From Schwartzia sp. (in: firmicutes) (GTDB taxonomy: Bacteria > Bacillota > Negativicutes > Selenomonadales > Selenomonadaceae): a stretch of DNA of 64,000 bases. How positions within the stretch are numbered: the stretch's first letter is position 1; the number at the start of each line of letters is the position of its first letter. Both the position numbers and the translations under genes were made by a program. Positions 28,922 to 39,982 of the stretch are shown here, one piece after another. Below the pieces are notes generated by a model. That model did no database searches. It was not told the DNA's origin and saw nothing but the letters and a program-made list of their open reading frames with translations. The stretch covers positions 1-64,000 of the forward strand of contig JAFVAI010000036.1 in assembly GCA_017480545.1 (NCBI GenBank), written 5' to 3'.

Positions 28922-28950
28922 ATTATAGTATAAAGGAAGACAAATAGCAA
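28922..28950 (-). promoter_or_regulatory. addBA promoter
   Basis: Minus-strand TTGCTA (28945-28950), 17-nt spacer, TATAAT (28922-28927), directly after the terminator of the riboswitch-led RNA 1. Confidence 0.82.
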
Positions 28951-29282
28951 AAGCGTCTGACAAAATGCCAGACGCTTGTTTGAAAAAGGAGGGGCCCGGC
29001 GCACGTACCGCCGGGCATTCGCCGCAAAACGGCAAACCCAAAAGGAATGTGTATGAGCAATGCTTCTCTATGGAGCTGAAACCATAGAGAAAACTTTTTG
29101 CCTAGGAGGTGTCCCGGAGCTGTCACCAGACTCCGGGACTGCTGCCAAACGGCAGCGTTCTGAATGAATTATGGTAAATCGTGGACCATCAAAGGAGGGG
29201 GACAACTCCCCCGTAGAGTTGCCCCGGCTACTGTCTGCCACCGCGCTTGGAAGAAAAAACACGGTGAAGAGAAAAAGCAAAA
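28951..29282 (-). ncRNA. Candidate structured RNA 1 downstream of a cobalamin riboswitch
   Basis: About 330 nt between the riboswitch terminator and a second terminator (stem AAGCGTCTG/CAGACGCTT, 28951-28977). Minus-strand hairpins in order: CAACTC/GAGTTG, CTGCC/GGCAG, a nine-pair stem GTCCCGGAG/CTCCGGGAC capped by an inner CUG-GUGA-CAG (a GNRA loop), TTCTCTATGG/CCATAGAGAA, GCCG/CGGC and CCCGGCG/CGCCGGG. The pyrimidine motif CCTCC follows three of the stems. The order, loops and motifs recur in RNA 2 at 39199-39643. No convincing ORF. Function unknown. Confidence 0.65.
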
Positions 29283-29283
29283 C

Positions 29284-29315
29284 AAAAAGCTCTTTTCCGA
29301 GCAAGGGAAAAGAGC
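29284..29315 (-). terminator. Riboswitch-associated terminator, RNA 1
   Basis: Minus-strand stem GCTCTTTTCC/GGAAAAGAGC followed by TTTTT, about 90 nt after the B12 box. Probably the expression platform of the riboswitch. Confidence 0.8.
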
Positions 29316-29399
29316 AGAATATCAAACATCCGCGATACACAAAACAAAACGCCTATCGCATGATCCCTTCCCTGTCGCTCGCAGGTCAAACAGAAACCG

Positions 29400-29556
29400 C
29401 TGATCAGGCAGGTCTCCTGGCTCCAGCCTTTCCCTCCCCGGCGCCTTCCCATGCTCTCGCACAGTGGCACTGCCGGGTCGCTGGCTGTTACAGTGGCGGG
29501 ACCGCTCCGGACTTCAACCGGCTTCCCTATTAAGTCTTGCGACGCCTAATCCAAAC
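29400..29556 (-). promoter_or_regulatory. Cobalamin riboswitch 1
   Basis: The minus strand carries the B12-box GCCAGGAGACCTGCC (about 29408-29423), the upstream core GGTCCCGCCACTGTAA, and GGGAAGCCGGTTGAAGTCCGG. These are the defining blocks of the adenosyl/methylcobalamin riboswitch aptamer. It is led by its own promoter and followed by a terminator, then by structured RNA 1 instead of a transport or synthesis gene. Confidence 0.92.
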
Positions 29557-29593
29557 AATATGAACTTTTCAAAGATGAATTGCTTATGGACGT

Positions 29594-29622
29594 ATTATAA
29601 ATGATTATGATTTTACTGTCAA
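29594..29622 (-). promoter_or_regulatory. Promoter of cobalamin-riboswitch RNA 1
   Basis: Perfect consensus on the minus strand: TTGACA (29617-29622), 17 nt, TATAAT (29594-29599). Transcription would start near 29587. Confidence 0.85.
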
Positions 29623-29722: not shown

Positions 29723-29808
29723 TGACTTGAATATAAAATCTGTTTTTTCATATTTTCTTGCAACAAAAACGCAACGGGTTATGTAGTATGGAAGGGAGAC
29801 GTGCGGGC

Positions 29809-31608
29809 ATGGAATGGGCAACGGACTTGGAAATGTATCGGGAGGCGCTGCGCGCCGAGCGGATCGGCGTGGCCCGATGGGATCTCAAGCTTGACCGCGT
29901 TTTCGGCGACTCGACGATGATGGTGCTTTACCCCGACCATCTGACCAACGGGGCGTATTCCGAGTTTTTGCTGCGCCGCCCCGACCTGCACCCGAACGAC
30001 GTGAAATTCTTCGAGGCGCTGGTGCGCTTCGTGCAGGCGCCGCATCACGAATACGCCGGCAAATCCCACGAAATTGTCGTCGACTTCCGGCTGGCGGACG
30101 CGGGGAACCGCGAGCAATGGTTTCACGCGCACTATACCATTCATTTCGAGAAGGAACAGCCCCGGAGCGCCGTCCTGTTGCTCCGCAGCACGGACTCCGA
30201 GCACCGGCAGGCGGAAACGCTCCGGCAGAAGGCCGAGCGCGACGCCCTGACCGGGCTCTACAACAAGGGCCACGCCCGGGAGCTGATCGACGAGGCGTTG
30301 GCCGTCCCCGGCACGACGAAAGCCCTGCTGGTGCTGGACATGGACGGCTTCAAGAAAGTGAACGACAACCTCGGCCATCTCTTCGGCGACGCGGTGATTT
30401 CCGACATGGCGCTGTCGCTGGCGGAAGTCTTTTCCTCGGAGGGCGACATCATCGGCCGGGTGGGCGGCGACGAGTTCGTCGTGCTGCTGCGGGACATCGG
30501 GAGCCGTGACGCGGTGGTGGCTAGCTGCGAAAAGCTCCGGGACATGCTGCGCCGCAGCTTCGAGTACGGGAAAAACCAGACGCTGAACGTCAGCGGCAGC
30601 GTCGGCATCGCCCTGTCGCCGGAGTTCGGCGACTCCTTCGAGGCGCTTTTCTCCTGCGCGGACAAGGCGCTCTACGAGGCCAAGCGGAGCGGGCGGGACA
30701 CGCAGGTCTTTTACACGGACGAGCTGCGCGAGGGCGAGAAAAAGAACGCGGGGGAAAACGAGATTGTCGAAGGGCGGCAAGCGCTCCTTGATCATCCCGT
30801 GGAATTTATTTTCCGAATGCTCTACGAAACGAGGAACCAGCGCATCACCGTGCAGACCCTTTTGTCGCTTTTCGCGAAATATTTTATGGTGCAGCGGGTC
30901 GTGATTTACCAGAGCCAGGGCGAGAACCCCGGCTGTTGGTTCGAGTGGTGCGCCGACGGGACGATACCGACGGCGGAGGCCCATGAGGGCGCCGTCGGCG
31001 AATTTCTCAACCGGACGTACCGAAAAGAAATCTACGGGCGTTTCCTGGAGTTCTCGGACACGTCGAAAGTCAACGGCCCCATGGGGACGCTGATGCCGGA
31101 GCGGAACATTTTCGCGCTGCTCTATGTGAACGTCATGGACGGGGAGAAGCGGATCGGCTGCGTCGGCTTCGAGGATTGCCGGGGGACGCGGATATGGACC
31201 AAGCGGGAGCATGAAATCCTTCGGACTTTCGCCGACATCCTCGGCACCTTCCTGATGGACCAGATGCGCTACAAGATGGTGCGGCGGGGCTACCGCCGCT
31301 TGCAGGGGCTGCTGGACGCCGTCGCGGGGCGTTTTTGGGTCGTCGACACGACGGACGGCCATATCGCCTATATGAACCGGGCGACACGGACGATGCTCGC
31401 CGACAGCGGAAACGACGAAACGAAAAACTGCTACAAGGTGCGCACCGACACGAACCGCCCCTGCGTCCGCTGCGAGTACGCGGATCTCCACGCGGACTGC
31501 CCCGGCGCGCTGCCCCTGCGGCAGGAAGCGGAGCGCCGCGGCCTCGCCCCTATCCCGATCCGTTGGAACGAGGGGCTGGACGGGCGGCTTTACCTCATCG
31601 ACGCATGA
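29809..31608 (+). CDS. PAS-GGDEF-GAF-type diguanylate cyclase with Cys-rich C-terminal sensor
   Basis: 599 residues, no membrane segment. The N-terminal 125 or so residues look like a PAS fold. The GGDEF domain (about 140-300) has DALTGLYNK, VLDMDGFKKVNDN and an intact active site RVGGDEF; no RxxD inhibitory site is seen five residues upstream. A GAF-like region (about 330-490) follows. A C-terminal PAS-like segment carries CYKVRTDTNRPCVRC and a further Cys (ADCPGA), a layout common in Negativicutes GGDEF proteins that could bind a metal or haem (inference). Predicted to make c-di-GMP. The ATG at 29809 follows GGGAG; an upstream ATG at 29788 is possible. Confidence 0.85.
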   Translation: MEWATDLEMYREALRAERIGVARWDLKLDRVFGDSTMMVLYPDHLTNGAYSEFLLRRPDLHPNDVKFFEALVRFVQAPHHEYAGKSHEIVVDFRLADAGNREQWFHAHYTIHFEKEQPRSAVLLLRSTDSEHRQAETLRQKAERDALTGLYNKGHARELIDEALAVPGTTKALLVLDMDGFKKVNDNLGHLFGDAVISDMALSLAEVFSSEGDIIGRVGGDEFVVLLRDIGSRDAVVASCEKLRDMLRRSFEYGKNQTLNVSGSVGIALSPEFGDSFEALFSCADKALYEAKRSGRDTQVFYTDELREGEKKNAGENEIVEGRQALLDHPVEFIFRMLYETRNQRITVQTLLSLFAKYFMVQRVVIYQSQGENPGCWFEWCADGTIPTAEAHEGAVGEFLNRTYRKEIYGRFLEFSDTSKVNGPMGTLMPERNIFALLYVNVMDGEKRIGCVGFEDCRGTRIWTKREHEILRTFADILGTFLMDQMRYKMVRRGYRRLQGLLDAVAGRFWVVDTTDGHIAYMNRATRTMLADSGNDETKNCYKVRTDTNRPCVRCEYADLHADCPGALPLRQEAERRGLAPIPIRWNEGLDGRLYLIDA

Positions 31609-31766
31609 TGCAATCCTATAGAAAAATTTTCACGATTTCATATTGACAGACAACTTTCGGTGTGCAAAAATGAAAATGTCATTTCCATATTCAAAAATTC
31701 CGGGCGCATACCCGATGAAATATATCCTTTCGGCCTCATACATTTTAAGAAACGGGGGAAAACACG

Positions 31767-33500
31767 ATGAATCAATTTTCAATCAAGGCAAGGCTGATGA
31801 TGGGCTTCGGCGCCATCGTCGCGCTGTTCATTCTCTTCGCCGCGTTCGTTTACAAGGAAATGATCGACGTGGACGAGAATCTGGAATTGATTACCGAGGA
31901 TCTCACAGAAATCACCGAGCAGATCAACGAAATCGACCGCGCGGCGGGCGACGGCCGCCGCTCCATGCTGGTGGTGCTCGCGCTCCGCAACACCAACGAG
32001 GCGAGCAAGAAGGTGGCGGAAATCCAGGCGGCGCATGACGAGGCGAACCAAAGCATCGCGAAGGCAAAGAGCCTGATCGAGAAAGCGGAGTACGGCACCG
32101 AGTCCGACCGCAAAAACGACATCGCCACCCTCGACAGCATCGACAAATTCTGGAAGGTCTACGAGGCCGACGAGAGCCAAGCCATCCAGCTCGCGGCGGC
32201 GGGGGACTTCGACGGCGCCCTGCGCTTGGTCGCGCAAGGCGAAGGACGCAAGGCTTACCAGCAGATGAACAAATTGGTGGACGGGCTGATCGAAAGGTGC
32301 GACAAACTGGCCGACGAAGCAGGAAAAACGTCGCAGGAAGATGTCCACAACATGATGCACTACGCGCTTGCCGCCGCCGTCATCGCGGTCATTCTCTCCG
32401 TTGTCATCGCGTTCCTGCTCATTAAGACCATCCAGAGCGGCTGCGAGGAGCTGCTCCGCGTCTCGGAGCTCGTGGCGAGGGGCGACCTGACGCAGCGGGC
32501 GGATATCGACGGCGACAACGAATTCGCTTCCCTCGCCGCCAGCAACAACACGATGATCGCGAATATGCGCAAGCTCATCAAGCAGATCCAGGATTCGGCG
32601 CAGCAAGTCGCCGCTTCCTCCGAAGAACTGAACGCGAACTCCCAGCAGTCCGCCGAAGTTTCCCAGACCATCGCCCAGTCCGTCACGGATATGTCGGCGG
32701 CGGCGACGGCGCAGCTGGAGACGATGGGCGACACCGTCAACATGACGAGCGAGGTTTCCCGCGACGCGCAGGCCACAGCGGAGGTCGTGCGCACCACGGC
32801 GGAGCAAACGAAGCACGCGCTGGAGCAGGCGCAGGCGGGCAGCGAGCTCGTCGGCACCACCGTCTCGCAGATGCAGCAGGTCGCGCAGGAAGTGGACGAG
32901 TCCGCCAAGGTCGTCGAAAAGCTCGGCGAACGCTCGAAGGAAATCGGCCAGATTGTCGAAAGCATCTCGGCCATCGCCGACCAGACGAACCTCCTCGCGC
33001 TGAACGCCGCCATCGAGGCCGCCCGCGCCGGGGAAGCGGGACGCGGCTTCTCCGTCGTCGCCGAGGAAGTCCGGAAACTTGCGGAGCAGTCGCAGGATTC
33101 CGCCCAGCATATCAGCACATTGATCGGCTCCATCCAGAGCGACACGGCCCAAGCGGTGGACGCGATGGCGCGCGGCACCGCGAAGGTCAAGGAAGGCTCC
33201 GCCAGCGTCGATTCCCTCGGCTCGGCCTTCGAGTCCATCCGCAGCGTCGTCGAAGATTTGAGCCGCGAGGCCACGGCCTCCCTCGGCACCTTCGAGGCGT
33301 TGGAGCAGAAAATCGACGGCATCGCGTCCTCGGCACGGGACGTCGCAAGCTCCGCGAAATCGGTCAACGACGAAGCCCAGTCCGCTTCCGCTTCCGTGCA
33401 GGAGCAGTCAGCGGGCATGGAAGAAATCGCCTCGGCCTCGTCCAGCCTCGCGACGCTGGCGAACAGCCTGAACAGCGCCGTAGGGCAGTTCAGGGTATAA
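31767..33500 (+). CDS. Methyl-accepting chemotaxis protein
   Basis: 577 residues. Membrane segments lie at about 10-28 and 192-212 and flank a four-helix-bundle periplasmic domain; a HAMP domain (about 212-265) and the long cytoplasmic coiled-coil signalling domain follow. The highly conserved hairpin tip reads [20 protein letters not shown] followed by [17 protein letters not shown]. No C-terminal CheR/CheB pentapeptide. ATG behind GGGG; monocistronic, with a strong terminator after it. Its presence suggests a motile or surface-responsive organism. Confidence 0.95.
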
Positions 33501-37408: not shown

Positions 37409-37576
37409 TTAAGGAAACGCCGAACAAGTCCCGCCGCGCCCCTGCCGGGTCTTTTTCCGTCATGCCGCGTCAAAGTGCTCTCGACGTAGCGATGCTACGC
37501 CTTCGAGCCCTTTTCCTTGCCTGACGAAAAAATCCCTCGGCAGGGTCACGACTTGACTTATTCGGCGTTTCCTTAA
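37409..37576. repeat. 168-bp near-palindromic element, copy 2 (between two c-di-GMP genes)
   Basis: Same length, TTAA ends and fold as copy 1 at 20447-20614. The apex GTAGC-GAT-GCTAC and the outer arms are conserved. The inner stem differs (AAAGTGCTC/GAGCCCTTT here, GATGCCGT/ACGCCATC in copy 1), yet pairing is kept with a single mismatch at the same position. The right TTAA supplies the TAA stop of the upstream GGDEF gene. Confidence 0.85.
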
Positions 37577-39132
37577 TAACGTATCGCGGTCTCCCTCCGG
37601 TTCTGCTTTGCCTCGTACAGGCATTCGTCCGCCTTGTGCATCAGGGCGGATATGTCGGCCCCCGGTGTGCAGACGAAGGAGGTCGCCCCGATGGAAAGCT
37701 CCACATAGTACGGCTTCTTGCTTTCCGCGTTGTAGTCCCGCATCAAGGCTCTTGTCCGCTCCACGGCTTCGACACCGTTCCCGTGCGCCGCGCAGAGGAA
37801 AATCACGAATTCGTCGCCGCCCACGCGGCCGATGATCGCGCGTTCCCCGAATCCCGAGCGCAGCATCCGCGCCGCAGCGGAAATGGCATCGTCCCCTGCC
37901 GCGTGGCCGATCTTGTCGTTGATGTGCTTCAGATGATCCAAGTCGGCAAAGACGAGCACCGCCTCGTTGCCCGCGTATTCCTTCATGGCTTCGCCGACTT
38001 TTTCCTTGAAACCGTACCGGTTCAAAAGCCCGGTCAGTTCGTCGGAGGAGGCCTTGCGCTCCAACTGACGGCTCTTGTCGTGCAGGGAACGCAAATGCTC
38101 GATGCCCTCTTCCAACGCCCCGATCTCGTCCGTCTCGCCATCGTCTTCGGCGGTTCCCTCGAGACTCCGGAATTCGCGGGCCACCTTGTTCAGCGGCGCC
38201 GTTATGGTTTCCGCGAAGAAACGGACAATCAAAAACGCCAGCAGCACAGCAACGAGGAACACCGCCGCCACCACCTGCAACAGGCGGCGAATCTCTCCGT
38301 CGATCCGCTCCAGCGGATAGCAGGAAACGACCGCCCAACGGTTCCCCGCGATCTGGAACGGCGTCACGGCGCCAAAACGCTCCGAACCGTCCAACGCGCG
38401 AAACGCGGTGAAGGTCTGCTCCTCCGTGGCGAGAGACGTGCGGATCGCGTAAGCCAGCCGTTGGTCGGGCGAGCCCTCGCCCATGAGATTGTCACGCCCA
38501 ACCATTTCGGAAAGCTCGTTGGCACCGACCACAAGCCCGTCCTCGTCGATGATATAGAGATTCTCGTCCGAGAAGATCGCGTTCGCCACCACCCGATCCA
38601 CCAACGTGGAAAGATGAACCGAGGCGAACAGCACACCGCCAAGCTCGCCATTCTCGAACACCGGCTGGAGCACCATCGTCTGCATCTTTTTCGTCGTCTC
38701 GCCGAGGAACGGCTTGGAAATGTACGGCTCCCCGGTGCGGAGCACCTGCCGGAAATACGCCCGCGAGCCGCGGTCGAGATGCTTGCCGTCGGCGCGCAGC
38801 GTCTGCCCGTCGGGCCGCGCGAAAAGCGTCTGCCCGATCAGCGGGCTCGTCCTCTTCAGTTCGTTCAGTTCCCGCAGGATCGCGTCCTCATCCCCCGAAA
38901 GAAACGCCTCGGGGTGCGCCGCCGCCACCTTCAGCGGCAGCTGGATATCCGCCACGGAAATCTGCATCCGGAGCGCCGCCTCGTTGCCGAGGCACCGTGC
39001 CACCAGCACGCCGCCCTCCGACAGGGATTCACGGGCCATATAGTAAGTGAGGCCGGAAATCAGCACAAAGCAGAGCGCCAAAAGCGGCAAAAGCACCATC
39101 ATGAACCGGGCATGGACCGACTTGATCGTCAT
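37573..39132 (-). CDS. Membrane diguanylate cyclase with periplasmic dCache-type sensor and HAMP
   Basis: 519 residues. TM helix 1 (about 10-30) is followed by a periplasmic Cache-like sensor (FARPDGQTLRADG, SRAYFRQVLRTGEPYIS, AVVSCYPLERID), TM helix 2 (about 290-310), a HAMP segment and a GGDEF domain (about 365-519) with DELTGLLNRYGF and an intact RVGGDEF. No RxxD inhibitory site directly upstream. Predicted c-di-GMP synthase responding to a small extracellular ligand. It lies just after the terminator of riboswitch RNA 2; no strong promoter of its own is visible, so readthrough from that RNA is possible. Confidence 0.88.
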   Translation of the reverse strand: MTIKSVHARFMMVLLPLLALCFVLISGLTYYMARESLSEGGVLVARCLGNEAALRMQISVADIQLPLKVAAAHPEAFLSGDEDAILRELNELKRTSPLIGQTLFARPDGQTLRADGKHLDRGSRAYFRQVLRTGEPYISKPFLGETTKKMQTMVLQPVFENGELGGVLFASVHLSTLVDRVVANAIFSDENLYIIDEDGLVVGANELSEMVGRDNLMGEGSPDQRLAYAIRTSLATEEQTFTAFRALDGSERFGAVTPFQIAGNRWAVVSCYPLERIDGEIRRLLQVVAAVFLVAVLLAFLIVRFFAETITAPLNKVAREFRSLEGTAEDDGETDEIGALEEGIEHLRSLHDKSRQLERKASSDELTGLLNRYGFKEKVGEAMKEYAGNEAVLVFADLDHLKHINDKIGHAAGDDAISAAARMLRSGFGERAIIGRVGGDEFVIFLCAAHGNGVEAVERTRALMRDYNAESKKPYYVELSIGATSFVCTPGADISALMHKADECLYEAKQNRRETAIRY

Positions 39133-39198: not shown

Positions 39199-39643
39199 AA
39201 AAAGCGCCTGACAAAAAGGCCAGACGCATGTTTGAAAAAGGAGGTGGGCGCCCGGCGTACGTACCGCCGGGAACCCGCCGCGAAAGAAAGCGGCAAACCC
39301 CAAAAAGAAATGTATGAGCAATGCTTCTCTATGGAGCTGAAACCATAGAGAAAACCTTATGCCGATGGGTGGGAGCCCCCGAAATCCTTCCAAAGGCCCC
39401 CGAAAAGGAAAGGAATGTATGAACATGCTTCTTTATGGAACCAAGCCATAAAGAAAACCTTTTGCCTGAGGAGGGGCGCGCGGAGAAGAACCCACGCGCC
39501 TGCTGCCGTCGGCAGCGAATTGAATGAATGTATAGTTAGAGGTGACTACCGTCCAAAAGGAGGGTGTCCCGTCTCCCCCTATGAAGGCGGGACCATGATG
39601 ACCGCCGCGCTTGGAAGAATGGCGCGGAGAGAAGAAAACAAAA
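39199..39643 (-). ncRNA. Candidate structured RNA 2 downstream of a cobalamin riboswitch
   Basis: About 445 nt, paralogue of RNA 1. Shared blocks on the minus strand: CTTCCAAGCGCGG, CCTCC after three stems, ATTCATTCA then CTGCCG-CGGCAG, the module with stem TTCTYTATGG/CCATARAGAA followed by AGCAT and TCATACAT, GGGTTTGCCG, and CCCGGCG-GTACGTA-CGCCGGG. The TATGG module is present twice here (39408-39474 and 39302-39370) but once in RNA 1. It ends at a terminator with five U (39199-39227). The stem near 39285 changed from GCCG/CGGC to GCCGC/GCGGC, keeping pairing. No convincing ORF. Confidence 0.65.
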
Positions 39644-39677: not shown

Positions 39678-39756
39678 GATCTGGCAAAGCCACGCCGTCA
39701 CCAAACAAACAGCGCATGATCCCCCTCCCCGTCGCTCGCGGGTCAAACAGAAACCG

Positions 39757-39912
39757 TTGATCAGGCAGTTCTCCTGGCTCCAGCTCATCGCTTCCCGGCG
39801 TCTTCCCATGCCATAGGCACAGTGACGCTTGCCGGGTCGCTCGCTGATACAGTGGCGGGACCGCGCCGGACTTCCACCGGCTTCCCTATTAAGTCTTGCG
39901 ACACCTCATCCA
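39757..39912 (-). promoter_or_regulatory. Cobalamin riboswitch 2
   Basis: Minus strand contains B12-box-like GCCAGGAGAACTGCC (about 39763-39778), GGTCCCGCCACTGTA and GGGAAGCCGGTGGAAGTCCGG, matching riboswitch 1 and the family. No terminator is seen between trpG and this riboswitch, so trp readthrough would also meet it. Confidence 0.92.
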
Positions 39913-39953
39913 ATCGTTATGAAATTTTGAATCTGAAATTCATTGCTGTATAG

Positions 39954-39982
39954 ACCATATCATAATTTCAGTCGCGTGTCAA
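39954..39982 (-). promoter_or_regulatory. Promoter of cobalamin-riboswitch RNA 2
   Basis: Minus-strand TTGACA (39977-39982), 17 nt, TATGGT (39954-39959). The -35 box lies inside the last codons of trpG. Confidence 0.75.

Follow-up and report, generated by a model that had tools for sequence, protein, structure and literature searches.

What is controlled by a cobalamin riboswitch that is followed by a series of stem-loops in place of a protein gene? The question is raised by a predicted minus-strand transcription unit (29622-28951) in the window, by which we mean the whole 64,000-nucleotide stretch of Schwartzia sp. DNA that was analysed. The original prediction described this unit as a stand-alone, riboswitch-controlled structured RNA, and both its anatomy and its homologues support that description. 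We identified the following features.

29594..29622, minus strand: RNA promoter, TTGACA-N17-TATAAT, 12 of 12 consensus bases
29390..29564, minus strand: cobalamin riboswitch aptamer, RF00174 (107.0 bits, E 8.2e-26; gathering cut-off 31.5)
29289..29315, minus strand: terminator T1, the riboswitch expression platform (terminator scan)
29190..29267, minus strand: module 1, two hairpins and then arm CCCCCTCCTTTG (CCTCC 29198-29194), read from the sequence; arm unpaired in the minimum-energy fold
29102..29189, minus strand: module 2, linker CATAATTCATTC, hairpins (one with a GUGA loop) and arm ACCTCCT (CCTCC 29109-29105), read from the sequence; arm unpaired in the minimum-energy fold
29046..29101, minus strand: module 3 core, the family-wide element, a conserved hairpin and linker GCATTGCTCATACACATTCC (model R1, 78.9 bits, E 1.1e-15; covariation)
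28986..29045, minus strand: remainder of module 3, GC hairpins and arm CCCCTCCTTTTT (CCTCC 28992-28988), read from the sequence; arm unpaired in the minimum-energy fold
28951..28977, minus strand: terminator T2, the RNA 3' end, a 12-bp stem and T tail
28922..28950, minus strand: addB promoter, outside the RNA, TTGCTA-N17-TATAAT, 10 of 12 consensus bases

The perfect promoter, the full-length aptamer, its terminator with a T tract, the second terminator and the separate promoter of addB (identified by a Pfam ADDB_N match) had all been proposed from the letters alone, and all were recovered here. Comparable promoters lie 5' of the riboswitch in relatives. Right behind the aptamer, GGGAAGGG could pair with the 5' arm of T1 as an antiterminator, as read from the sequence. 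About 310 nt of stem-loops separate T1 from T2 in the window copy, and the GUGA loop claimed for one of them is present (GGTGACA, at about 29127-29121 on the minus strand). The G-U pairs of the core stem fit the minus strand only and the T tracts agree, which fixes this as the RNA strand, as had been proposed. The claim that the riboswitch has no evident protein target also stands: the longest ORFs of ten homologous regions are mutually unrelated, so no conserved protein is hidden in the stem-loop part. With no ORF common to the ten regions, a hidden protein was rejected.

We searched the part after the riboswitch against Rfam 15, and no family reached the gathering threshold (the best E was 1.6 with the threshold removed). 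From 22 sequences we built R1, a covariance model that spans the core hairpin and linker. This core consists of GKCGAAARGUUUU, a covarying hairpin and UUGCUCAUACAUUUCAUUC; in the R1 alignment, compensated changes on both sides occur in 4 of the 11 stem pairs. Within the family, R1 identified the RNA in 105 of 189 genomes, which belong to 15 of 30 genera. In the wider class it added four genomes, each from another Negativicutes family and each with its copy behind a riboswitch and terminators. A broader sequence model had matches in 117 genomes out of the 380 of the class, from 22 genera, but the four outside genomes are in its training set and are therefore independent through R1 only. In the second model, R2, indels blurred the stem, which left a model of sequence alone. 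The search for covarying homologues in Negativicutes that the original prediction had proposed thus returned them, nearly always behind a cobalamin riboswitch. The extent of the family goes beyond that prediction, as do the tandem array with CCUCC arms in the window's genus and the link to mutA.

The family consensus is GKCGAAARGUUUUYCC-hairpin-GGRRANCAUUGCUCAUACAUUUCAUUC. Copies for this alignment were picked by the string TGCTCATA, so the invariance of TGCTCATA there is partly ascertainment. In each of 45 diverse copies, a hairpin folds at one and the same position between the conserved flanks, although the stem sequences differ. A mutual-information scan of the free alignment, dominated by misaligned loops, gave no clean additional helix. 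In five genomes of genus g8, weak matches have a cobalamin riboswitch directly on one side and mutA directly on the other. By sequence criteria, the RNA is a widespread family absent from Rfam. No prior report of it was found by a literature search from whose coverage subscription journals were mostly missing. The transcription unit and its conservation are well supported, and the existence of a conserved, B12-riboswitch-linked non-coding RNA unit is very likely.

The same riboswitch precedes homologues in more than 100 genomes. When about 100 loci were inspected, only four had no RF00174 riboswitch closely upstream. One of these lies at a contig edge (L013) and another, L082, is a duplicate whose aptamer is truncated; the remaining two, L174 and L175, are orthologues without a riboswitch. 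In the duplicated case (G184:C8), an intact riboswitch-module copy lies ~15 kb from one keeping only the riboswitch 3' end, and by its sequence the pair is a duplication with aptamer loss. In L174 (G001:C49:914-969) and L175 (G006:C24:34531-34586), the module lies between an AraC-like gene and a terminator. This suggests that the module may be able to work apart from B12 control.

Genes 3' of the RNA include CitMHS-like permeases (25 loci), cbiK operons (16) and mutA-type genes (12), as well as serS, convergent genes and unrelated genes. Many single-module copies stand alone, and others sit before mutA, cbiK or the permease. In two relatives (L007, G010:C10, and L010, G007:C39), the stand-alone RNA is immediately followed by a second cobalamin riboswitch, and this one leads into mutA. 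There is no gene to control in cis in g12 (Quinella-like), g42 or the window's genus. Because the downstream context is variable, the RNA and not the neighbouring gene is the constant unit.

Copies that do precede genes could mean that the stand-alone RNA is an ordinary riboswitch with a long 5' region that has lost its gene and its function. The riboswitch copy with a truncated aptamer at L082 is also consistent with decay. However, the core keeps its sequence and structure across five families and in the stand-alone copies of many genera, the core covaries, and the array has expanded rather than decayed. We consider such a relic very improbable.

A second cis reading is that the B12 riboswitch is followed in tandem by a further cis-acting attenuator or aptamer, formed by the module and T2, and that stand-alone copies are derived or degenerate. 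T2 does lie between promoter and gene in the cbiK and mutA leaders, and in some genera T1 of these leaders has no T tract. In g3, g42, g8 and some of g41, the 3' portion of the linker (CAUUCAGUUCUAU) has a pairing partner 5' of the T1 hairpin (e.g., AUAGAACUGAAUG), in most cases with 11-14 pairs that are kept through G-U changes. This pairing, absent from the window copy, places the conserved strands in a multi-branch junction that encloses two hairpins, with the conserved sequences as joining strands. Changes in the junction partners preserve pairing, mostly by G-U. Against this, T2 is followed by a convergent gene or one with its own promoter in Quinella-like g12 (about 30 species), g42 and the window's genus, and thus nothing remains in cis to control. 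Furthermore, the T2 arms do not pair with conserved parts, and gene-less tandem arrays are hard to explain. A cis attenuator is therefore an improbable account of the RNA.

The RNA in the window's genus is a tandem array, with three modules in the window copy and as many as five in relatives. A module is made up of a hairpin, a linker of the CAUACAUUCAUUC type, GC-rich hairpins (one or two) and the arm (A/C)CCUCCUUU, which is single-stranded. A second copy in the same genome (39982-39204, minus strand) has the same layout, and a GGDEF gene follows it. Its features are as follows.

39954..39982, minus strand: promoter, TTGACA-N17-TATGGT, 10 of 12 consensus bases
39747..39923, minus strand: cobalamin riboswitch, 109.9 bits
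39649..39677, minus strand: terminator T1, located in the sequence
39412..39465, minus strand: core module with divergent loop and linker TGTTCATACATTCC (R1, 62.5 bits)
39307..39362, minus strand: canonical core module (R1, 85.1 bits, E 3.1e-17)
39204..39227, minus strand: terminator T2, located in the sequence
39563, 39474 and 39244, minus strand: CCTCC arms, from the sequence

Five cobalamin riboswitches were identified in this genome, and the module follows three of them. The third module-bearing riboswitch is within the leader of a cbiK operon; of the two that are module-free, one precedes mutA. Genes for GGDEF proteins and chemotaxis receptors flank both RNA copies in the window (29758-33500, plus strand; 37573-39132, minus strand). 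In one relative (L025, G003:C46), an unrelated ~170-nt insert, partly inverted repeats, splits a module between the linker and the GC hairpins.

The arm (A/C)CCUCCUUU is identical to the 3' tail of 16S rRNA (CACCUCCUUU). Ten arrays of the window's genus contain 31 CCUCC motifs, versus 8.3 +/- 2.9 expected from dinucleotide shuffles, where the highest of 300 shuffles had 16. In the minimum-energy fold, none of the three CCUCC arms of the window copy is paired. The RNA thus has a feature of anti-Shine-Dalgarno multi-site sRNAs: repeated unpaired C-rich arms with complementarity to Shine-Dalgarno sites.

Our best reading, a tentative one, is that this is a B12-repressed, trans-acting RNA that may act antisense on the translation starts of mRNAs, with mutA as lead target. 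With cobamide bound, the riboswitch would halt transcription at T1. When cobamide is scarce, RNA polymerase would pass T1 and yield a structured non-coding RNA ending at T2, which could then pair in trans with translation starts. The mRNA proposed first among these is that of mutA, the B12-dependent methylmalonyl-CoA mutase. In many relatives with a single module, it is the conserved linker (UUGCUCAUAC) that would pair, covering the start codon of mutA. Pairing in the window's genus would be mainly via the reiterated CCUCC arms on the strong mutA Shine-Dalgarno site. The predicted outcome is that the mutase, lacking its cofactor, is no longer made under B12 shortage.

Several observations point to mutA. 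The module is immediately 5' of mutA in g41 and g8 (Selenomonadaceae) and in two other families, and RNA and mutA co-occur (41/5/15/10; Fisher p 0.006, with kinship ignored). We ranked targets against sampled genome stretches. The mutA start ranked first of 48-72 sampled starts for the linker in 6 of 10 genomes and second in 2 of 10; these genomes were partly picked after the complementarity was seen, so a combined p would be too good. In genera with a complementary mutA, the linker covers the start codon, of the GUAUGAGCAAUG type. One genome (G160) has linker variant CAUAUAUU together with mutA AAAUAUGAGC, so that linker and mutA have changed together there. On inspection, mutA was also among the linker-complementary starts in g3 and g10.

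In the window's genus, mutA starts with ATGGAAGAA, which has no fit to the linker, and its Shine-Dalgarno sequence (AUGCAAAGGAGGGUU) fits the CCUCC arms. Arm 1 of one genome (G010) has 12 nt of complementarity to mutA. Among the best three arms of each genome, mutA ranked 2, 2 and 2 of 116 in G010 and 10, 1 and 6 of 107 in the window's own genome (G000); it ranked low for the remaining arms. Since CCUCC fits any strong Shine-Dalgarno site, specificity for mutA is unproven.

Other comparisons weaken the case. The linker is nearly invariant also where the mutA start is non-complementary (the window's genus, g9, g13, g15 and g39), which makes a second linker function (a protein or another target) likely. 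Equally complementary mutA starts occur in genomes with no detected RNA (G203, G204, G153, G154 and G042). Across all genomes, linker-mutA pairing was not better in RNA carriers than in non-carriers (Mann-Whitney p 0.12; 0.03 minus the window's genus). A search for long mRNA complements of the linker (17 nt, 3 mismatches) gave scattered matches only, with no common gene. Across the family, start sites complementary to the linker were modestly more frequent than those for the reversed pattern, and mutA apart, no one gene was conserved among them. For the cofactor-sparing reading, the riboswitch supplies the control that would be expected, and pairing with mutA is strong in some genera and absent in others. 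We take mutA as a lead only; trans action on it may be the main role of the RNA, with the balance somewhat against.

Invariant flanks that stay unpaired around a sequence-variable hairpin resemble a protein site, and amplification to 3-5 tandem modules would suit a sponge. The B12-gated RNA could accordingly be a decoy that binds a protein through the conserved hairpin flanks, with tandem modules adding sites. The precedent is an ANTAR antiterminator: Rli55 of Listeria and EutX of Enterococcus are both sRNAs under a B12 riboswitch, and each sequesters an ANTAR protein (PMC8934654; PMC5821096); the hexaloop motif of these sRNAs has A1 and G4 (PMC8934654). The host genome encodes one REC-ANTAR regulator (E 5.4e-22) next to a histidine kinase, and two relatives within the genus (L021 and L025) each have a lone A1/G4 hexaloop on a 12-bp stem. 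However, the loops of the family-wide hairpin vary in length and lack A1/G4, which is found nowhere in the window copy and almost nowhere else. The original prediction doubted that the hairpins match an ANTAR target as in Rli55 and EutX; the missing hexaloops largely bear this out, and the ANTAR regulator of the host leaves such a decoy some probability. No known protein recognises the conserved flanks. We regard a decoy role as unlikely. The REC-ANTAR and histidine kinase genes lie near a gyrA/parC-like gene (L420, G000:C105, about 9.5-10.1 kb).

The linker of the window copy, UUGCUCAUACACAUUCC, resembles the boxA of phage lambda. A boxA-type antitermination site (rrn or lambda nut-like), in which the hairpin and GCUC-containing linker would let polymerase through T2, was considered as well. 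The real rrn boxA of the family is UUGUUCUUUGAAAACU, with which the linker agrees only in UUGYUC, and the host rrn boxA (TTGTTCTTTGAAAACT) is unmatched by the linker. This candidate was rejected as highly improbable.

The RNA resembles Rli55 and EutX in that a cobalamin riboswitch governs a non-coding RNA predicted to be made under low B12. It differs in sequence, lacks dual A1/G4 hexaloops in the conserved element and the window copy, has no eut genes nearby, and is found across Negativicutes with tandem modules that carry CCUCC arms. The proposed logic is that of RyhB-type sRNAs, in which a scarce cofactor leads to an RNA that leaves a cofactor-using enzyme untranslated; here, however, B12 is the cofactor, and sensing falls to a riboswitch within the transcript itself and not to a repressor protein. 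As in LhrC- and RsaE-type RNAs, there are several unpaired C-rich arms per RNA that are able to cover ribosome-binding sites, but the window RNA is riboswitch-controlled and its arms follow GC hairpins in tandem modules. AspocR of Listeria, an antisense RNA under a B12 riboswitch, is cis-antisense to pocR. The likeness is a riboswitch-controlled antisense-type RNA; the candidate target of the window RNA, unlike pocR, is mostly at another locus. To our knowledge, few cases of riboswitches governing non-coding RNAs exist.

A cobalamin riboswitch upstream of methylmalonyl-CoA mutase also occurs in Veillonella, another of the Negativicutes. In a reporter, corrinoids repressed the V. parvula mutA riboswitch along with others, according to the accessible sections of one paper, which treat it as a plain cis switch and do not discuss an element between riboswitch and mutA (PMC9600662). 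A riboswitch before the mutase is also noted in the accessible part of another, which likewise contains no description of this RNA (PMC7160235). It is possible, if doubtful, that a cobalamin-sparing RNA operates class-wide, such that riboswitches before mutA control not mutA itself but a trans sRNA that silences mutA under cobamide scarcity; the junction may also bind a second ligand or a protein. If true, this would explain the puzzling presence of a B12-repressed riboswitch before a B12-dependent enzyme. Control of the mutase would also link B12 supply to propionate output. The more than 110 genomes in which the riboswitch-governed RNA is conserved are those of gut and rumen bacteria that form propionate, and carriers include cultured, named strains (Selenomonas ruminantium and Anaerovibrio). 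The loop of T2 in many relatives (L017, L057, L068, L083 and L404) is often GUGGAG or GUGGAAG, and GGA within a hairpin loop, as in T2, would be CsrA-like.
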